26,956 nucleotides of DNA from positions 1 through 26,956 of IMG/VR virus record IMGVR_UViG_3300017783_000166. One strand, 5' to 3'. The position numbers and the translations under genes are program-made. The notes under the pieces are model-generated. The model had not been told where the DNA came from. It saw nothing but the letters and a program-made list of their open reading frames with translations, and searched no databases. This document shows positions 5,381 through 24,870 of the stretch, one piece after another (position 1 is the stretch's first letter; each line of letters opens with the position of its first letter). Origin of the DNA: a virus.

Positions 5381-7030
5381 ATGAGTCAACTTTTTGGGTT
5401 CTTAATTAATAAGGATGGGTCGAACAAGGGTCAATCTCCTGTTCCTCCCAACCAAGACGATGGTGCCACTATAGCCGCTGGCGGTTATTTTGGCACCTAT
5501 GTTGATGTTGAGGGTGTGCATAAAAATGAGTTTGATTTAATCAAACGTTACAGAGACATGTCTCTTCACCCCGAGTGTGACTCTGCTGTTGACGAAATCG
5601 TCAACGAATTTGTAGTCAGTGATGCTGACGATAGTCCTGTTGAAATTGAACTTACTAATCTAAATGTTGGTGCTGGAATCAAAAATAAGATTAGAGAAGA
5701 GTTTGAAACCATTAAAAAAATGATGCGTTTTGATAAAAAAGCGCATGAAATTATTCGTAATTGGTATGTGGACGGTAGAATTTTCTACCATAAAGTTATC
5801 GATCTCGAAAACCCAAGGAAAGGTATTTTAGAATTAAGGTATATCGATTCTTTAAAAATTCGTAAAGTTAGGCAACAGATAAAAGATAAGAACAAACAAC
5901 AAGAAGAAAGAGGAACGGCACTCCAGTATGACTGGGGTGATTACATTGATTACTATGTCTACAACCCCAAAGGTTTTGGTGGTAGTATGACCGCTAACTC
6001 TGCTTCAGATTATAGTAGTTCTAATGGAATTAAAATTGCAGCAGATTCTATTGCTACATGCCATTCTGGATTACAAGATCTTAATAAAAAAATTACCCTA
6101 AGTTTTTTACATAAAGCAATTAAGTCTCTCAATCAACTACGAATGATTGAAGACTCTCTTGTTATCTACAGACTATCAAGAGCACCCGAGCGTAGAATTT
6201 TCTACATCGATGTAGGCAATCTACCTAAAGTTAAAGCGGAACAATATCTCCGTGATGTCATGGCACGTTATCGTAACAAGATGGTTTACGATGCAAACAC
6301 TGGTGAGATTCGTGACGATAAAAAGCATATGAGTATGCTTGAAGACTTCTGGTTGCCTCGTAGAGAAGGTGGACGTGGTACTGAAATTACTACATTGCCT
6401 GGTGGTCAGAACCTAGGTGAGCTCAAGGATGTTGAGTATTTCAAAAAGAAACTATACAACTCACTGAACTTACCACCTTCACGTCTCACTGACGATAACA
6501 AAGGATTTAATCTCGGTAAGACCACCGAAGTCCTACGTGACGAACTTAAGTTCAGTAAATTTATTGGAAGACTCCGTAAAAGATTTAGCGAAATCTTCCA
6601 AGATGTCCTAAAAACTCAACTCATTCTTAAAGGAGTAATCACTCCTGAAGATTGGGAGGACATGGAAGAGCATATTCAATATGACCTCCTGTTCGATAAT
6701 CACTTCAATGAACTCAAAAAAATTGAGATGATGAAAGAGCGTCTTTCTGTAGTAGCAGAGATGGATGCTTTTGTCGGTAAGTATGTTTCATCTGAATTTA
6801 TTCGTAAAAACGTTCTCATGCAAACTGAGAAAGAGTATAAAGAAATGGAACGTCAGATGAAGCAAGATATCGATAGTGGTTTAGCATTAAACCCTGTAGA
6901 TGTCAATACTGCAGACATGATGGTTAAGCAAAATGATGCAATGCAACCTGAATTAGATGCTGCAGCTGCTGATGCAGATGCGGAACGTCAGGCAAAATTG
7001 CAGTCCGCAAAACCACAAACCAATAAATAG
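5381..7030 (+). CDS. gp20: Portal vertex protein (gp20)
   Basis: The portal forms the dodecameric ring at one capsid vertex, nucleates prohead assembly and docks the terminase. The product has 549 residues (T4: 524). Landmarks are YRDMSLHPECDSAVDEIVNE (57-76), WYVDGRIFYHK (128-138), the RLSRAPERRIFYIDVGNLP segment and LYNSLNLPPSRL, all typical of T4-type portals. The C terminus is Ala/Asp/Gln-rich. The first 35 residues are flexible and Gly/Pro/Asn-rich. No Shine-Dalgarno precedes the ATG; the leader ends CTCATT, as does that of the next gene. Confidence 0.97.
   Translation: MSQLFGFLINKDGSNKGQSPVPPNQDDGATIAAGGYFGTYVDVEGVHKNEFDLIKRYRDMSLHPECDSAVDEIVNEFVVSDADDSPVEIELTNLNVGAGIKNKIREEFETIKKMMRFDKKAHEIIRNWYVDGRIFYHKVIDLENPRKGILELRYIDSLKIRKVRQQIKDKNKQQEERGTALQYDWGDYIDYYVYNPKGFGGSMTANSASDYSSSNGIKIAADSIATCHSGLQDLNKKITLSFLHKAIKSLNQLRMIEDSLVIYRLSRAPERRIFYIDVGNLPKVKAEQYLRDVMARYRNKMVYDANTGEIRDDKKHMSMLEDFWLPRREGGRGTEITTLPGGQNLGELKDVEYFKKKLYNSLNLPPSRLTDDNKGFNLGKTTEVLRDELKFSKFIGRLRKRFSEIFQDVLKTQLILKGVITPEDWEDMEEHIQYDLLFDNHFNELKKIEMMKERLSVVAEMDAFVGKYVSSEFIRKNVLMQTEKEYKEMERQMKQDIDSGLALNPVDVNTADMMVKQNDAMQPELDAAAADADAERQAKLQSAKPQTNK
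7022..7029 (+). promoter_or_regulatory. Late promoter octamer AATAAATA (prohead genes)
   Basis: AATAAATA overlaps the end of gp20 and lies 19 bases before the ATG of the gp67-like gene. Confidence 0.7.
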
Positions 7031-7048
7031 TAAATAAACTGACTCATT

Positions 7049-7234
7049 ATGCCATCCAATACTGATGAAATCCGTGGAATTGTGGACCTCCTCCATGACT
7101 CTAAACGAGCGGATGCTCTTGAAAAAATTGAAGACATCCTAAACGCCAAAGCTGCTGAAGCATTAGATGTTTACAAAAAGGTTGTCGCTGACACATACTT
7201 CGATGAACCAACAGACGAACCAGAAGAACAATGA
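7049..7234 (+). CDS. gp67: Prohead core protein (gp67-like)
   Basis: The 61-residue product has two amphipathic helices (IRGIVDLLHDSKRADALEKI and AKAAEALDVYKKVVAD) and an acidic tail (EPTDEPEEQ). T4 gp67, an 80-residue prohead core protein, has the same plan and lies in the same interval between portal and protease, so the call rests on position, size and pattern, not on strong identity. In T4, gp67 is cleaved by gp21 and its peptides stay in the head. The last four bases overlap the gp21 start (ATGA), implying coupled translation. Confidence 0.75.
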   Translation: MPSNTDEIRGIVDLLHDSKRADALEKIEDILNAKAAEALDVYKKVVADTYFDEPTDEPEEQ

Positions 7235-7875
7235 AATTAATTACGGAAAATATTGAAGACGTAGAGATTCTTGTCGAAGAAAAAGACGGCAAGAAAAATC
7301 TTTATATTGAGGGTGTATTTCTCCAGTCGGAAACTAAAAACCGAAACGGAAGAGTATATCCATTCGATGTTTTAAATAATGAAGTTCAAAAATATAATGA
7401 ATCCTACGTGACTACTGGTCGTGCTCTTGGCGAACTTGGTCATCCTGATGGTCCATCTATCAACCTTGACCGTGTGTCTCATAAGATTGTTTCACTCAAA
7501 GCAGAGGGAACAAATTTTATGGGCAAGGCACGTATCCTAGATACCCCCATGGGTAAGATTGCAAAATCTTTACTTGGTGAAGGTGTCAAACTAGGAGTTT
7601 CATCTAGAGGCATGGGTTCTCTGGATGAAAAAAACGGTGTTAAATATGTACGTGACGACTTCATGCTCGCAACTGCTGCAGATATTGTAGCAGACCCTTC
7701 CGCTCCTGATGCTTTTGTTCAAGGAATTATGGAAGGAAAAGAATGGGTTTGGGACAACGGTCTCCTCAAAGAGTACCAAGTTTCAGAATACAAACAGTAT
7801 ATTTCTGAATCCACCCGCAGAAATCTAGAAGAGAGGAAACTAAAAGCGTTCTCCGCATTTATGTCAAGTCTCTAA
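7231..7875 (+). CDS. gp21: Prohead core scaffold and protease (gp21)
   Basis: This serine protease digests the scaffold and trims the capsid proteins before packaging. The 214-residue product carries the family's His segment GELGHPDGPSINLDRVSHK (His71), the Ser segment GVSSRGMG (Ser124/Ser125) and a downstream Asp region ADIVADPSAPDAF. N-terminal IEGVFLQSETKNRNGRVYP is the usual opening of this prohead protease fold. Length is close to T4 gp21 (212). It starts inside the end of the gp67-like gene and is followed by a late promoter and its scaffold substrate gp22. Confidence 0.95.
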   Translation: MKLITENIEDVEILVEEKDGKKNLYIEGVFLQSETKNRNGRVYPFDVLNNEVQKYNESYVTTGRALGELGHPDGPSINLDRVSHKIVSLKAEGTNFMGKARILDTPMGKIAKSLLGEGVKLGVSSRGMGSLDEKNGVKYVRDDFMLATAADIVADPSAPDAFVQGIMEGKEWVWDNGLLKEYQVSEYKQYISESTRRNLEERKLKAFSAFMSSL

Positions 7876-15598: not shown

Positions 15599-16000
15599 AT
15601 GGAAGACATACAAGAATTTTATTCTACAATCAAACTAGCATCTGGAGAAGAAATCATCGCTAAGGTATGTACCTTACCAGATGAAGATTCTCTTTTATTA
15701 GATCATCCTAGGGTTGTAGAAACTATTAAAGGAAGAAATCAACAGGAAGCATTTATTTTAAAAGATTGGATTAAATCTAGTTATGATGAGATGTACATTA
15801 TTAAGATGGATCAAATTATTACTATGAGTGAACTGGATAAGAAAATTGAATCCTTTTATCTAAAAAATCTTAATAAAGAAGACATAATTGATTCAGATGA
15901 AACCAATATTAAACCTAAACAATTAAGTAGTAAGATGGGTTACTTAGGGTCTGTTAAAGAAACTAAGAGGTACTTAGAAAATCTATTTAATAAAAGCTAG
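15599..16000 (+). CDS. Conserved hypothetical protein after uvsW
   Basis: The 133-residue product begins with a beta-rich part, IKLASGEEIIAKVCTLPDED, then LLLDHPRVVE, a pattern reminiscent of Sm-like barrels in several phage proteins, followed by IIKMDQIITMSE and an acidic helical tail. The Sm-like idea is a weak reading from pattern only. It starts one base after the uvsW stop and is the last gene before the sigma-70 promoter, so it probably shares the uvsW transcript. No catalytic motif is visible. Confidence 0.75.
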   Translation: MEDIQEFYSTIKLASGEEIIAKVCTLPDEDSLLLDHPRVVETIKGRNQQEAFILKDWIKSSYDEMYIIKMDQIITMSELDKKIESFYLKNLNKEDIIDSDETNIKPKQLSSKMGYLGSVKETKRYLENLFNKS

Positions 16001-18626: not shown

Positions 18627-20366
18627 ATGATTATTTTTAAAAAAATCCGATGGAAGAATTTTTTGTCTACAGGCAATCAGTTCATTGAAGTTGATTTGAC
18701 TAAGAACAAAACTAATCTGATTGTTGGAAAGAACGGTGCTGGAAAGTCTACCATTCTAGATGCTCTAACTTTCTCATTGTTTGGTAAACCATATCGAAAG
18801 ATTAATAAACCGAAACTAGTCAATAGTATCAATGAAAAGGATTGCATTTCTGAGACTGAGTTTTCTATTGGCAAGAATGATTACAAAATTATTCGTGGTA
18901 TCAAACCTGCAAAGTTTGAAATCTATTGCAACAATCAACTCTGGAATCAGGAATCATCTGCTATAGACCAACAGAAGCAGTTGGAACAAAACATTCTTAA
19001 GATGAATTATAAATCTTTCACACAGATTGTAGTTCTCGGATCTTCAAATTTTATTCCTTTTATGAGATTGCCTTTGGCATCACGTAGAGAAATTATTGAA
19101 GACATCCTTGATATTCAAATTTTCTCTACGATGAATGTTAATCTCAAAGAGAAAGTTAAATCTATTATGGAAGATTTAAAAGATCGTGATTATCAAATTG
19201 ATACTCTCGATCAAAAAATAGAAATGCAAAAGAGTTTTATCAATGATCTCCAAAAGAAAACCGAAGATCTGGTTGTATCTAAAGAAAACAAGATTACCGA
19301 GTTGTCTACCGAGCAAGGGATTCAAAGCAGTAACATTGAAGAGTTCACTAAAGAGATCACCCATCTTAGTAGTGAAGTCACCCAGTTTGCAGGTGCAGCA
19401 AAAAAACTAAAGACACTTAATACCTTTAAAGGTAAAATTCAACAGAAGTATTCAACTCATGAAAAAGAACATAAGTTCTTTACAGAGAATGAAAGTTGTC
19501 CAACCTGTGGTCAATCTATTGATGATCATGTTAAGGAAGATAGACTCTCTTCAATCATGAATGCTATCAAAGAACTTAATAAAGGATCTGAAGAGATCGA
19601 AACTGCTATTTCTGAAGAAGAAGAAAGGAACAAAACATTTACTGAACTGTCTACTAGTATCAATGATTACAGCTCTAAGATTTCTTTTGCTAACACTACA
19701 ATTAGCAGGATTCAGCGGCAGATTGATGAGACCAAACAAGAAGTGGAATCTCTTACAAAAACAAAAGGTAAAGAAACCGAAGCATATTCTAAACTTGAAG
19801 AATATGAATCTGAATTAAAATCAGCAAAAGAACATCTAGTCTTTGTAAAACAAGAACGAGAATGTCTGCAGGCAGCAGCGATGCTTCTTAAGGACAATGG
19901 TATTAAGACTAGAATTATCAAAAGATATTTACCAGTGATGAATAAACTCATCAATGAATATCTATCAAACATGGATTTCTACGTTAATTTTACATTAAAT
20001 GAAAATTTTGAAGAGACTATTAAATCAAGACATAGGGATATTTTTTCTTACGAATCTTTCTCGGAAGGAGAAAAATCTCGTATTGATATCGCTCTGTTGC
20101 TTACTTGGCGTTCTATTGCTAAGCTCAAGAATAGTGTGGATACTAACCTCCTCATTCTAGATGAAATTTTTGATGGGTCTTTAGACACAGAAGGTTCGTC
20201 TGATCTTGGTTGGATTCTTCGTAACTTTGATAAAAATACTAACGTGTTTATTATCAGTCATAAAGAATCAATGGATGATAAATTCCATGCAACTTGGAAA
20301 TGTGAGAAGGTCAAGAACTTTAGTATCATGAAGGAGTCAGTTAATGAACTGGCCGAGGAGGGGTAG
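18627..20366 (+). CDS. gp46: Recombination nuclease subunit gp46 (Rad50/SbcC-like)
   Basis: gp46 is the SMC-like ATPase partner of gp47. The 579-residue product (T4: 560) has Walker A GKNGAGKST (34-42), coiled coil about 170-410 broken by a zinc hook CPTC (291-294), signature FSEGEK (478-483) and Walker B LLILDE (508-513). All are in Rad50 order and look intact. It starts directly after the DUF3110-like stop. Base composition is AT-rich (16 G/C in 60 at 19201-19260). A terminator overlaps the stop. Confidence 0.97.
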   Translation: MIIFKKIRWKNFLSTGNQFIEVDLTKNKTNLIVGKNGAGKSTILDALTFSLFGKPYRKINKPKLVNSINEKDCISETEFSIGKNDYKIIRGIKPAKFEIYCNNQLWNQESSAIDQQKQLEQNILKMNYKSFTQIVVLGSSNFIPFMRLPLASRREIIEDILDIQIFSTMNVNLKEKVKSIMEDLKDRDYQIDTLDQKIEMQKSFINDLQKKTEDLVVSKENKITELSTEQGIQSSNIEEFTKEITHLSSEVTQFAGAAKKLKTLNTFKGKIQQKYSTHEKEHKFFTENESCPTCGQSIDDHVKEDRLSSIMNAIKELNKGSEEIETAISEEEERNKTFTELSTSINDYSSKISFANTTISRIQRQIDETKQEVESLTKTKGKETEAYSKLEEYESELKSAKEHLVFVKQERECLQAAAMLLKDNGIKTRIIKRYLPVMNKLINEYLSNMDFYVNFTLNENFEETIKSRHRDIFSYESFSEGEKSRIDIALLLTWRSIAKLKNSVDTNLLILDEIFDGSLDTEGSSDLGWILRNFDKNTNVFIISHKESMDDKFHATWKCEKVKNFSIMKESVNELAEEG

Positions 20367-20380
20367 GACCCTCCTTTTTT
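20357..20380 (+). terminator. Intrinsic terminator overlapping the gp46 stop
   Basis: GGAGGG (20357-20362) pairs with CCCTCC (20369-20374) across a 6-base loop and six T follow. The TAG stop of gp46 lies in the loop, so the terminator is embedded in the end of the gene. Confidence 0.88.
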
Positions 20381-20386
20381 ATGGCT

Positions 20387-20392
20387 TATAAT
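20387..20392 (+). promoter_or_regulatory. -10 element TATAAT upstream of the CobT-like gene
   Basis: A perfect TATAAT lies just after the gp46 terminator and 22 bases before the ATG at 20415. No good -35 is seen 16-18 bases upstream (TAGGAC), because the terminator occupies it. It may need an activator or be a weaker middle-type promoter. Confidence 0.55.
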
Positions 20393-20414: not shown

Positions 20415-22568
20415 ATGGTTGATCATCAAGTCAAAGGTACTCTTGCCCGTCTGCTGGCAACTGAGAATCTTGTCATTGAGCACAAGAAAGTTTCTACTGC
20501 ATCTTTTGATGTTGTGAATCGTGTGTTGGTACTCCCTATTTGGGATGCCTCAGGGACTGTCTATGACCTTCTGGTGGGTCATGAAGTGGGTCATGCTCTC
20601 TTTACTCCTTCAGAAGACTGGAGACGCTCTACAAGCGTTCCTGTGCCTCCTGATTATGTGAACGTGATTGAAGATGCTCGGATCGAAAAACTGATGAAGC
20701 GTAAGTACGCTGGTCTTGCTAAGACTTTTTACAAAGGTTATCAGGAACTGAATGATCAAGATTTCTTTGACATTCAAGATGCTGATATGATGGATATGTC
20801 TTTCATTGATCGTGTCAACCTACACTTCAAAGTTGGAATCTATGTTAAGATCCCTTTCTTTGATGAATGGGAACAGAGTATTATCACTGATGTAGAATCT
20901 GCTGAAACTTTTGCTGACGTGCTTTTTATTTCTGAGGAAATTGTCAAGCACTTGAAATCAAAAGCACCTGAGGAAGAGTCTTCTAAAAATCAGGAAGGTG
21001 TTCCTAATGGAACTCTTAATGGTGGAGATAATTCTGACAATGGTGACGTTGATGAAGACGGAGAAAATGATTACTCCGATATGGCAGAAGATGGTGATAA
21101 TGTTTGTGATGGTAACCAAGGTGGTGGTCCTGATGAAGAAATTTCTGAAACTCAACGTTCCTTTGATGAGTCTCTGGAAGAACTTGCTCAAACAAAATCT
21201 TGGATGAGTGAAACTGAATACGTTGAAATTCCTAAGATTAATATTGATCGAGTCGTTGTTTCTAACCATGCTCTTCGTGATCACATTACCAGTACGTATG
21301 ATGTTTATGAGGAGCTGCGTATTAAGCACTTCGGAAGTCCCTTTGAAAAAGTTGATTCTCAGTACAAGCAGTATCGTAAAGATGCTCAGAAAGAAGTTAA
21401 CTATCTTGTTAAAGAATTTGAGATGAGGAAGTCTGCTGCTGCATATTCCAGAGCATCTACTTCAAAAACTGGAGTCCTGGACACTAAGATGCTGCACAGT
21501 TACAAATACAATGATGACATTTTCAAGAAAGTATCTGTTATTCCTGAAGGTAAAAATCATGGATTGATTTTTATTCTTGATTGGTCTGGTTCAATGAGTA
21601 ATTGTATGCAATCTACAATCGAGCAACTTTTGAATCTTGCTTGGTTCTGTCGTAAGGTCCACATTCCATTTGATGTGTATGCTTTTACGTATGAGTGGCA
21701 TGAGAGTATTCTGTGGAGAGATGATGATGAGGTTGATCCTGAAGAAGAGCTTGCTCCTAAGTGTGTTGCTAAAGATGGACATCTTGATATTCATAAAAGG
21801 TTCTCTCTTCTTAACCTTCTTACTTCAGACACTACAACGAAAAACTTTGAGGTTGACTGTTTGAATCTGTATCGCTTGGCATACAATGCTGATCGTCGTA
21901 ACTGGAGCGACTTAATTGTTCCTCCTGGGCTTTCTCTTTCTGGAACTCCTCTTAATGAGTCTATTGTTTGTCTTCATGAAATAATTCCTCAGTTCAAAAA
22001 GAAAAATGGTGTAGAGAAAGTAAATACTGTTATTCTTACTGACGGAGAAAGTGCAGGTATTTCTTACCGAGTAGATGTTAGTCGTAGGTATGGTGGTGAC
22101 AATCATTACCTTGGCCATAATAACGTGTGCGAACGTCATGCTCTTCGCTGTCGTAAAACTGGTAATGTGTATAAAAACTTTGATGACACTTATAAAGGTT
22201 GTGTGACCAACGTCTTGCTGCAAAATTTGAAAGATTGTTTCCCCGAAGTTAATCTTATTGGTTTCCGAATTATGTCTGGTAGTGACTTTGGTCATCTTCT
22301 ACGTGGTTCTTTGGGTGTTAGTACTTGGGATTCTCCTGAGTATTCTGCTGGAATGAAACTATGGCGTAAAAATAAAGCATATGAAGTCACTAAGTTTGCG
22401 TTTGATTCCTTGTATGTAATGGCTCATTCTAAACTGGATCAGAATACTGAATTTAATATTGAAGAATCTTTAACCGACAGAGACGTTGCTAAAGCATTTC
22501 GTGCTATGATGAAGACCAAGAGAACCAACAAGAAGATTCTCTCCTCCTTTGCAACCTTGGTCAGTTGA
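20415..22568 (+). CDS. CobT-like protein: HExxH metalloprotease motif plus VWA domain
   Basis: The 717-residue product joins an N-terminal HEVGH motif (56-60), with a likely third zinc ligand in VIEDARIE (84-91), to a C-terminal von Willebrand A domain with MIDAS DWSGS (389-393), Thr511 and Asp543 (LTDGES). An acidic Asp/Glu/Asn/Gly-rich linker spans about 180-245. This layout resembles CobT-type cobaltochelatase partners and VWA proteins that work with MoxR ATPases, and a CobS-like ATPase follows. No CobN is in the window, so cobalt chelation is unproven; remodelling or cleavage of host or virion proteins is the alternative. It begins after the terminator at 20357. Confidence 0.88.
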   Translation: MVDHQVKGTLARLLATENLVIEHKKVSTASFDVVNRVLVLPIWDASGTVYDLLVGHEVGHALFTPSEDWRRSTSVPVPPDYVNVIEDARIEKLMKRKYAGLAKTFYKGYQELNDQDFFDIQDADMMDMSFIDRVNLHFKVGIYVKIPFFDEWEQSIITDVESAETFADVLFISEEIVKHLKSKAPEEESSKNQEGVPNGTLNGGDNSDNGDVDEDGENDYSDMAEDGDNVCDGNQGGGPDEEISETQRSFDESLEELAQTKSWMSETEYVEIPKINIDRVVVSNHALRDHITSTYDVYEELRIKHFGSPFEKVDSQYKQYRKDAQKEVNYLVKEFEMRKSAAAYSRASTSKTGVLDTKMLHSYKYNDDIFKKVSVIPEGKNHGLIFILDWSGSMSNCMQSTIEQLLNLAWFCRKVHIPFDVYAFTYEWHESILWRDDDEVDPEEELAPKCVAKDGHLDIHKRFSLLNLLTSDTTTKNFEVDCLNLYRLAYNADRRNWSDLIVPPGLSLSGTPLNESIVCLHEIIPQFKKKNGVEKVNTVILTDGESAGISYRVDVSRRYGGDNHYLGHNNVCERHALRCRKTGNVYKNFDDTYKGCVTNVLLQNLKDCFPEVNLIGFRIMSGSDFGHLLRGSLGVSTWDSPEYSAGMKLWRKNKAYEVTKFAFDSLYVMAHSKLDQNTEFNIEESLTDRDVAKAFRAMMKTKRTNKKILSSFATLVS

Positions 22569-22578
22569 CAAACCGTCC

Positions 22579-22609
22579 ACTCTGCCCCTGACTCTGCCCC
22601 ACTCTGCCC
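22579..22609 (+). repeat. Three direct repeats of ACTCTGCCC
   Basis: ACTCTGCCC begins at 22579, 22591 and 22601, offsets of 12 and 10 bases, about one helical turn each. The array lies in the 70-base gap before the CobS-like gene and overlaps a promoter candidate, so it could be a protein-binding site. Confidence 0.75.
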
Positions 22610-22615
22610 TATACT
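22588..22615 (+). promoter_or_regulatory. Candidate sigma-70 promoter for the CobS-like gene
   Basis: CTGACT (22588-22593) and TATACT (22610-22615) are 16 bases apart, each one or two bases from consensus. The leader then contains ACAAACCA before the ATG at 22639, as in the gp55 leader. The second and third repeats lie within it. Confidence 0.5.
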
Positions 22616-22638
22616 ATTCACATCGATACAAACCAACT

Positions 22639-23715
22639 ATGACACGCTCTTCCAACATCGACATGATTCAACTACACAAGTTCTTTTCCGAAAACTATGG
22701 TAATGATTTTGGTGCTGATGCTGTTCGTGCTGCAGCAGAACGTGAGGGAGTTTCTTACCCCACTATCTGCAAACGTCTTGAGCAATACAAGGTAGGTCAT
22801 GGACGTTGGTCTTTGACTGCCGAACAACTGGAGCATACATATCAGGCACCTTCTGCTATTCCTGTTGTCGATCGGGAAGAAATGAATCTCATTCCCGCTA
22901 AGGATCATACCTTTGTCCCGTTCGGTAACTTCACTGATGTAAAAAAGATTATCAATTCTGGAATCTTCTATCCAATTTTCATCACTGGGATGTCTGGTAA
23001 TGGCAAAACTCTATCGGTAGAACAGGCATGTTCTGTACTAAATAGAGAACTTATTCGGGTAAACATTACCATTGAAACCGACGAGGATGATCTTATTGGT
23101 GGTTTCCGTCTTGTTGATGGCAACACTGTGTGGCACAATGGTCCAGTCATCGAAGCTCTGGAGCGGGGAGCTGTGTTGCTTTTAGACGAGGTAGACTTGG
23201 CATCTAACAAGATCCTATGTCTCCAATCTATCCTTGAAGGTAAGGGTGTCTTCCTTAAGAAGACTGGTCGCTATGTCCAACCTGCTCCTGGTTTTACAAT
23301 TGTGGCAACTGCCAATACCAAGGGTAAGGGTTCTGATGATGGTCGCTTTATCGGTACTAACGTGCTCAATGAAGCATTCCTTGAGCGTTTCGCTTTGACC
23401 TTCGAGCAAGCGTATCCAACCCCTACTATTGAACAACGTATCCTTGAAGGTATTTCTCTTGATCTAGGTATTGAGGATCGTGAGTTCTGTCAAAAACTTT
23501 CTTTTTGGGCAGACCAAATTCGTCGTACTTTCAAAGAGGGTGGTGTAGATGAGATTATTTCTACACGTCGCCTAGTCCACATTATCCGTGCTTACAGTAT
23601 TTTCGGTAAGCGTTCCAAAGCAATTGAAGTTTGTACTAACCGTTTTGATGATGAAACAAAAGAATCATTCATGTCCTTCTACGAGGCAATCGATGAAAAA
23701 GCAACAGAAGAATAA
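22639..23715 (+). CDS. cobS: CobS-like MoxR-family AAA+ ATPase
   Basis: ATG at 22639 is chosen; the frame is open back to a TTG inside the previous gene but that part overlaps the promoter and repeats. The 358-residue product has Walker A GMSGNGKT (117-124), Walker B VLLLDEVD (179-186), sensor-1 Asn226 (ATAN) and an arginine-finger ER (249-250). The N-terminal 60 residues look like a small helical DNA- or protein-binding part (GVSYPTICKRLEQ). A cobS call is standard in T4-like cyanophages: CobS is the ATPase of aerobic cobaltochelatase. The neighbour is its VWA partner type. Whether it acts in cobalamin synthesis or as a MoxR chaperone is open. Confidence 0.9.
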   Translation: MTRSSNIDMIQLHKFFSENYGNDFGADAVRAAAEREGVSYPTICKRLEQYKVGHGRWSLTAEQLEHTYQAPSAIPVVDREEMNLIPAKDHTFVPFGNFTDVKKIINSGIFYPIFITGMSGNGKTLSVEQACSVLNRELIRVNITIETDEDDLIGGFRLVDGNTVWHNGPVIEALERGAVLLLDEVDLASNKILCLQSILEGKGVFLKKTGRYVQPAPGFTIVATANTKGKGSDDGRFIGTNVLNEAFLERFALTFEQAYPTPTIEQRILEGISLDLGIEDREFCQKLSFWADQIRRTFKEGGVDEIISTRRLVHIIRAYSIFGKRSKAIEVCTNRFDDETKESFMSFYEAIDEKATEE

Positions 23716-23878: not shown

Positions 23879-24205
23879 ATGAGTGAACCCGTGAGTTATC
23901 TATTTCGCTATGACGAGGAGCAAATTCTAAAAGACATTAGGGAGTATGTGAGTGCTACTTACCGTAGTCACTACACTGCAACAGAACCTGGAAACTACAA
24001 AGACATACAAACCATCGATCTGATGGCAGTCAAAGATCTTGCTTCTGCCTTTTGTCAAGCAAACATCCTCAAGTATGGTAGTCGCTATGGATCTAAGGAT
24101 GGCAAAAACAAGAAAGACCTTATGAAGGTTATTCATTACGCCATGCTTCTACTCCACTTCGACGACCATTACAAAACACCTACTACTGAACCTTATAATC
24201 GATGA
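23879..24205 (+). CDS. DUF3310-like protein
   Basis: The 108-residue product contains AFCQANILKYGSRYGSKDGK (about 58-77), then DLMKVIHYAMLLLHFD, the arrangement of DUF3310 (a GNaiKYi.R motif, then a DlxKaxxYl helix), common in phages and present in the T7 nucleotide kinase gp1.7. Here it stands alone, without a kinase motif. A role in nucleotide metabolism is possible by analogy. It starts 3 bases after the preceding stop and overlaps gp45 by 4 bases, so it belongs to the replication operon. Confidence 0.7.
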   Translation: MSEPVSYLFRYDEEQILKDIREYVSATYRSHYTATEPGNYKDIQTIDLMAVKDLASAFCQANILKYGSRYGSKDGKNKKDLMKVIHYAMLLLHFDDHYKTPTTEPYNR

Positions 24206-24870
24206 GTAACGTTACTATTTCACCTGAAACTATGTCGGTGTTGAAAAACTTCTCCACCATTAATAGTTCAATTTTGATTCGTGAAGGTAACAAATTGAAG
24301 ACCATTAGTGTTGGTGAGAACGTAGTCGCTCAGTTTAATGCTGTAGAATCGTTCCCACAATCTTTTGGTATCTATGATCTAAACCAGTTCCTTACTGGTA
24401 TATCTCTTTTTGTTAATCCTATTTTAGTTTTTGGCAACAATGAGTACGTGACTATCAAGTCTGGTAGTCGTAGTGCGAAGTATTATTTCTCCAATCCAGA
24501 AATTACTTTGAAAGCAGCACCAGAGAGAGACGTTCGTTTCCCTGGTGCTGATATGGAATTCGCATTGACTCAAGAAGATATTCTTGCAATGCAGAAAGCA
24601 TCTGCTGTGTATGACATCAATGATGTGAAGTTCGAGTCTAGAGGAGATGGTTTTGTAACTCTAAGTCTTAATGACAAAGAGAACGAAACTAGCAATACAT
24701 TTTCTGTGACTGTTCCAGGTCAATGTACTGGAGAGTATGCGGTGTTTATGAAAATGGAAAACATTCGTCTTATGAATGGTGACTATAATGTCAAGATCTC
24801 TAAGCACTTGATTACCGAATGGAAGAATAAATCAATTGATCTTATGTACTACATCGCACTCGAACCTTGA
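24202..24870 (+). CDS. gp45: Sliding clamp gp45
   Basis: gp45 forms the trimeric ring that tethers DNA polymerase and, in T4, also activates late transcription. The 222-residue length is close to T4 (228). Recognisable parts are the N-terminal strand-helix SPETMSVLKNFSTINSSILI, GIYDLNQFLTGISLF (77-91 approx.), LTQEDILAMQKASAVYDIND and the C-terminal WKNKSIDLMYYIALEP. It overlaps the DUF3310-like stop by 4 bases and its TGA overlaps the TTG of the next gene. The clamp loader gp44 follows after one inserted gene. Confidence 0.95.
   Translation: MSNVTISPETMSVLKNFSTINSSILIREGNKLKTISVGENVVAQFNAVESFPQSFGIYDLNQFLTGISLFVNPILVFGNNEYVTIKSGSRSAKYYFSNPEITLKAAPERDVRFPGADMEFALTQEDILAMQKASAVYDINDVKFESRGDGFVTLSLNDKENETSNTFSVTVPGQCTGEYAVFMKMENIRLMNGDYNVKISKHLITEWKNKSIDLMYYIALEP

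Follow-up and report, generated by a model that had tools for sequence, protein, structure and literature searches.

A CobS-like ATPase and a zincin-like VWA protein of T4-like cyanophages as a probable protein-remodelling or processing machine

Two-gene systems that combine an AAA+ ATPase with a VWA partner include NorQ-NorD, CbbQ-CbbO and RavA-ViaA; to our knowledge, the NorD, CbbO and ViaA partners carry no zincin domain. Midasin (Rea1/Mdn1), with AAA_5 domains and a metal ion-dependent adhesion site (MIDAS) domain, is a single giant eukaryotic protein that is not known to contain a protease domain. In the aerobic B12 pathway, the adjacent genes of CobS-CobT encode an AAA_5 ATPase and a protein with an ExARxE N domain, an acidic linker and a MIDAS VWA domain. 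Group 2.2 jumbo phages encode a MoxR-type ATPase together with a vWA protein that has an N-terminal metallopeptidase domain (ASV44728/ASV44729), and virion assembly was proposed as the role of this system (PMC7824862). Here we describe a similarly laid-out pair of genes, encoding a metallopeptidase-VWA protein and a CobS-like ATPase, in the IMG/VR virus record IMGVR_UViG_3300017783_000166 (26,956 bases, all of which were analysed and are called the window below). The record is from a T4-like marine cyanophage; among named phages, Synechococcus phage Sf-FR1 is the closest to it (76% identity for the VWA protein and 91% for the ATPase). As a pair, the two genes are already known from the core of T4-like cyanophage genomes (PMC3037559, PMC8651126), and the families are not new. 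In one published reading viral cobST hijacks host CobN, the 'peptidase' label being considered an annotation error (PMC8651126). Both competing readings are already in print; what we add is tests that tell them apart, above all the invariance of the zinc site, the SAR11 hosts that lack CobN and the promoter class of the pair. From these we conclude that the pair is probably a non-chelatase AAA+/VWA/zincin machine that remodels or processes proteins and is used before the late phase.

The features of the two proteins are as follows.

20415..22568, + strand: metallopeptidase-VWA protein, 717 aa, phrog_459 'peptidase' (E 2.8e-244)
20580..20594, + strand: HEVGH at residues 56-60, signature of a zinc site, on predicted helix 47-63 (conservation, model)
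20670..20672, + strand: E86 of NVIEDARIEK, candidate for the third zinc ligand, on predicted helix 79-97 (conserved 163/163; helix in model)
20976..21134, + strand: acidic disordered linker, residues ~188-240 (confidence score pLDDT < 50; 16 D/E and 1 K/R in 53 residues)
21579..21593, + strand: MIDAS DxSxS, D389 W S391 G S393 (conservation, sequence)
21945..21947, + strand: MIDAS T511, in GTP (Thr in 158/160, Ser in the remaining two)
22041..22043, + strand: MIDAS D543, in TDG (159/159)
22639..23715, + strand: CobS-like AAA+ ATPase, 358 aa, phrog_249 'porphyrin biosynthesis/CobS' (E 6e-133)
22987..23010, + strand: Walker A, GMSGNGKT (sequence)
23176..23190, + strand: Walker B, LLLDE (sequence)
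23305..23319, + strand: sensor-1 region, ATANT (sequence)
23560..23571, + strand: STRR, possible sensor-2 or arginine-finger region (sequence; role inferred)

An initial annotation, made from the DNA alone, had credited the VWA protein with HEVGH at residues 56-60, a plausible third ligand, an intact MIDAS and a long acidic linker. All of these are present, E86 being the candidate third ligand. We collected 164 distinct homologues from IMG/VR, genome assemblies and named phages, which ranged from about 28 to 100% identity. H56 was conserved in 162/163 sequences, E57 in 163/163, H60 in 162/162 and E86 in 163/163, and the sole exception at H56, a lysine, came from a truncated open reading frame (ORF). 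The MIDAS residues D389, S391 and S393 were found in 162/162. Loss of HExxH or MIDAS from most homologues, which had been set as a test, is the opposite of what we observed, as both motifs are essentially invariant. An HExxH followed by a third ligand downstream on a helix is the signature of zincins. Pseudoalteromonas phage XG4 encodes the zincin part and the VWA part as two proteins, the former of which keeps HEVSH and NIVEDIRIEK. The XG4 locus (L083:3685-7220) has the VWA protein, the metallopeptidase and CobS each on its own ORF beside gp45, and its CobS is split into a Walker A part (~5991-6309) and a Walker B part (6311-7220).

The likeness of the VWA protein to CobT is slight at the level of profiles. 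When the two were compared domain by domain, profile-profile alignment gave E 0.056 for the N domain and E 0.004 for the C domain, both with very low probability, and PF06213 matched only 3/12 homologues at E 0.19 or worse. A match to phrog_5298, 'cobalamin biosynthesis protein' (E 2e-8, residues 156-430), was discounted because it covers the acidic linker. Searching PDB with a VWA-protein profile returned low-complexity or chance matches only.

The AlphaFold2 model of the whole VWA protein had a pLDDT of 82.3 and a pTM of 0.78, and the PDB structure closest to it was the NorD VWA domain from the NorQD complex (E 2e-4). The Midasin MIDAS was also among the matches. On this evidence the VWA domain is similar to that of other proteins that partner MoxR-type ATPases. 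When the N domain was modelled alone (pLDDT 92.5), HExxH and E86 lay on successive helices. Its top PDB neighbours were zincins, with selecase at ranks 1, 2, 5, 6 and 8, ArdC at 3-4, and PprI/IrrE, Wss1 and ZMPSTE24 lower. These neighbours favour, without proving, a zincin fold for the predicted domain. Selecase, ArdC and PprI/IrrE share with it an HExxH helix followed by a Glu-bearing helix; these minigluzincins or zincins differ in that they are not known to be coupled to a VWA domain or an AAA+ partner.

The ATPase most likely starts at the ATG at 22639, as the alternative TTG at 22549 would overlap the preceding gene. Its core is of the dynein-related AAA_5 type (PF07728, E 1.1e-18); NorQ and CbbQ were among its sequence matches, and the dynein-type AAA_5 domains of Midasin also align with it. 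At a coverage of at least 80%, each of the two proteins was found in 459 records of the phage collection, with equal numbers by name (Synechococcus 365, Cyanophage 61, Prochlorococcus 24). A query with the gp45 clamp found 372 Synechococcus and 61 Cyanophage records, and from these nearly matching counts it follows that nearly all T4-like cyanophages carry the pair. The two genes adjoin in nearly all cyanophage contigs long enough for both, and in the freshwater phage S-CRM01 they have been relocated and inverted jointly, as a two-gene unit. The resemblance to a MoxR-VWA pair that the initial annotation had proposed is therefore borne out, with a CobS/MoxR-type ATPase encoded beside a MIDAS VWA protein and the two-gene logic of NorQ-NorD, CbbQ-CbbO and RavA-ViaA.

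By analogy with its family, the ATPase would form an ATP-driven ring, which would dock on the MIDAS-containing VWA domain of its partner as NorQ-NorD and Midasin suggest. Movement driven by ATP would then pull, reposition or unfold a bound target, which the zincin domain at the N terminus (HExxH plus E86), attached through the acidic linker, would cleave or trim. Both proteins would be produced ahead of the late phase, along with those of the replication genes. Because production would be pre-late, the target would more likely be a host or replication-phase complex than a part of the virion. A pure AAA+/VWA chaperone would lack the last step of this scheme, its zincin-like site binding metal for structure or target recognition without any cutting. 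NorQD, CbbQO and RavA-ViaA are known to work without a protease, and bacterial CobT has a related N domain from which the motif is missing. We nevertheless consider such a chaperone unlikely, since a purely structural site would not need the general base E57, which is invariant, and since the XG4 zincin domain retains its HExxH even as a separate protein. The likelihoods that we attach to the several readings do not sum to one because the readings overlap: the chaperone without cleavage differs from the machine solely in lacking the cut and is a sub-case of it.

The reading in which the phage proteins assist a cobaltochelatase makes a different prediction. The CobS- and CobT-like proteins would replace host ChlI/ChlD and drive host CobN, resulting in more cobalamin during infection. 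Several observations fit. The ATPase is closer to CobS than to other families in NCBIfam and in single-domain PDB matches, and the VWA protein is laid out like CobT, with an ExARxE motif in the N domain, an acidic linker and a VWA domain. Cyanobacteria have no cobS/cobT of their own (PMC9227772). We used TIGR02257 as the CobN marker and dropped PF02514, which is unsuitable because it also covers ChlH; with this marker, CobN was present in 29/31 Prochlorococcus genomes and in a Synechococcus genome. In contrast, the phage ATPase scored 63.6 bits against the CobS equivalog TIGR01650, for which the cut-off is 558.55, and CobS_N (PF12556) was absent from it in the Pfam search. HExxH, which the phage family keeps, was found in 0/8 bacterial CobT proteins, in which only HHDxxxH-like and ExARxE sequences are kept. 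Gene order is also reversed, the VWA gene being first in the phage and cobS first in bacteria.

The phages themselves appear to offer no CobN to complete the enzyme. As the initial annotation had stated, none was found in the window, although this is weak evidence alone because the window is a 27 kb fragment; a search of the whole collection carries the point. Among 50,697 phage records, the CobN query matched only 2, from a Pseudomonas phage and a faecal phage. With an identical E-value limit, the matches listed for the VWA-zincin query included no Pseudomonas phage and no such faecal phage. Thus CobN-like proteins are nearly absent from phages, and none was found alongside the pair. The two records are OQ572414 and MT837301, and the CobN-like protein is nearly full length in Pseudomonas phage Y13. 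As to a demand for the vitamin, class I nrdA/nrdB are not known to need B12. It is this class that T4-like cyanophages carry (PMC5082946).

The hosts of pelagiphages also speak against the chelatase reading. Pelagimyophages are reported to carry cobS and cobT (PMC7029224), and the pair occupies the same place in HTVC008M, a phage of Candidatus Pelagibacter ubique. Yet CobN (TIGR02257) was found in 0/60 Pelagibacteraceae genomes, with not even a ChlH-like match. We take these genomes to be SAR11, as the 16S genes of two members exactly match four SAR11 fluorescence in situ hybridization probes. CobT, in contrast, was present in 59/60. Full-length cobS and cobT adjoin in the 4 SAR11 loci that were read (G319/G229/G407/G396, L207-L210), a DnaJ-domain gene was confirmed just upstream of them in two of these loci, and one SAR11 CobS has CobS_N and passes the equivalog cut-off (571 bits). 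A similar pattern was seen in a draw of alphaproteobacteria (n=58 genomes), among which CobN was above the cut-off in 21 and CobT in 43; CobT occurred in 20/21 CobN-positive and in 23/37 CobN-negative genomes. The control genome, Caulobacter vibrioides, had a CobT match and no CobN match was listed for it. Because CobT is kept without CobN in SAR11 and other alphaproteobacteria, even true CobST genes do not imply a cobaltochelatase, which suggests a cellular role of CobST unrelated to B12. The doubt about cobalamin synthesis voiced in the initial annotation is supported on both counts, by pelagiphage hosts without CobN and by bacteria that keep CobT without it. For these reasons the chelatase reading is clearly less well supported, and we regard it as improbable.

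One further genome was dropped as host evidence. A Nonlabens isolate appeared to have the pair and no CobN, but the contig in question is 98.2% identical to cyanophage P-TIM40. It is a 188 kb contig of the Nonlabens xiamenensis strain 1Q3 assembly (L095), compared over 8 kb, and is probably contamination.

The remaining proposal is that the pair is a virion assembly or processing machine, in which a MoxR-vWA chaperone with a peptidase matures structural proteins. The domain layout is the same as that described for the group 2.2 jumbo phages, the comparison being with the description in that paper, which also gives a MoxR-vWA system as needed for tail assembly of Acidianus two-tailed virus (PMC7824862). 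The conserved HExxH would suit such a role. The promoters and neighbours of the pair bear on this proposal, and they include the following elements.

7231..7875, + strand: gp21 head maturation protease, the virion protease of the phage itself (phrog_207, E 6.8e-88)
18627..20366, + strand: gp46/SbcC-like exonuclease subunit, context (PHROG match)
20338..20356, + strand: degenerate copy of the shared upstream element, 4 mismatches (pattern search)
20356..20375, + strand: terminator-like hairpin (AGGAGGG/CCCTCCT) then a T run, after gp46 (read by eye)
20387..20392, + strand: TATAAT, -10-like box before the metallopeptidase-VWA gene (promoter scan)
22562..22580, + strand: shared upstream element CAGTTGACAAACCGTCCAC, matching the family pattern exactly (pattern search)
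22610..22615, + strand: TATACT, -10-like box before the CobS-like gene (promoter scan)
24202..24870, + strand: gp45 sliding clamp, context (PHROG match)

In the window, the reported cyanophage late motif, NATAAATA (PMC2984593), precedes gp17, gp18, gp20, gp22, gp23 and two small ORFs at a distance of 27-51 nt, whereas it was not found upstream of either gene of the pair. Among homologues it was upstream of 5/155, compared with a background of 8/576. Instead, the two genes are preceded by the boxes TATAAT (-28) and TATACT (-29), respectively, and their promoters are likely of a pre-late class. In these promoters, and in belonging to the core of ordinary T4-like phages, the pair differs from that of the group 2.2 jumbo phages. 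The order of genes in the window is gp17, gp18, gp19, gp20, gp21, gp22, gp23, UvsY-like, UvsW-like, gp55, gp47, gp46, the VWA gene, the ATPase gene, gp45 and gp44. The placement between recombination and replication genes that had been noted at the outset thus holds, with gp46 and gp45 flanking the pair, and replication or recombination genes also adjoin it in other cyanophages, HTVC008M, DLP6 and XG4. Because the late motif is missing, gp21 is present and the neighbours are replication genes, a late virion role appears less likely. In addition, the part of PMC3037559 that was available does not name the pair among its newly detected virion proteins. We therefore judge the virion proposal likewise improbable. 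The initial annotation had called a remodelling or proteolytic machine with a host or virion target an equally good reading; the case for the machine has turned out stronger than that, whereas the virion target is disfavoured by the missing late motif and by gp21.

A 19-base element, CAGTTGAYAAASYGKCYAC, precedes the -10-like box of both genes by ~38-40 nt. When up to 3 mismatches are allowed, the chance expectation of the shared element is 0.07 per window, for a pattern that was itself derived from homologous loci and the 22562-22580 site. In 1.97 Mb of loci there were 52 matches to CAGTTGAYAAASYGKCYAC, of which 35 preceded the VWA gene and 9 the ATPase gene, a specificity that is overstated because the loci were chosen around these two genes; long or whole records held few further sites. 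These positions suggest co-regulation of the two genes, and the element may be a cyanophage activator site. It is often followed by a terminator-like hairpin.

Two other observations concern annotation of the region. Neither protein of the pair had a PADLOC match, and a defence-system reading was set aside. Between UvsW and gp55, a 133 aa protein (15599-16000) matches phrog_471, 'methylamine utilization', a metabolic label that is doubtful for a gene in the replication region.

Several points weigh against the remodelling or processing machine that we favour. The HExxH could hold zinc structurally, without cutting. The zincin matches of the N domain are each weak, at E 0.1 or worse, with none at E 0.001. 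The profile check that the initial annotation had recommended did not identify the VWA protein, which had zero matches at E 1 in Pfam and NCBIfam, to CobT (TIGR01651, PF06213, PF11775), VWA or any other family. In one divergent subclade the ATPase gene is elsewhere or was not found on the contig fragment, and it is ~18 kb away in the single long contig that showed it. The CobN of Prochlorococcus makes chelatase use possible in cyanobacterial hosts. Finally, the pre-late promoter class is deduced from sequence.

We also put forward a more specific proposal, which is tentative and may well prove wrong. All T4-like cyanophages and pelagimyophages would use the pair as a dedicated AAA+-driven metalloprotease that, ahead of the late phase, dismantles or cuts a specific complex of the host or of the replication phase. 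It would be the counterpart of a little-recognised cellular CobS-CobT-DnaJ remodelling module kept without cobaltochelatase in SAR11 and other alphaproteobacteria, and 'cobS' would have been misread as an auxiliary metabolic gene.

The distinction matters because marine virome papers routinely list cobS among the auxiliary metabolic genes for vitamin B12, in support of the view that viruses control B12. Should the pair be a remodelling protease, these inferences fall, and a highly conserved, unexplained gene pair of T4-like cyanophages opens to direct tests of its zinc site, its substrate and its deletion phenotype. With CobT kept in nearly all SAR11 genomes and CobN in none of the 60, cellular CobST may hold a conserved role apart from B12.

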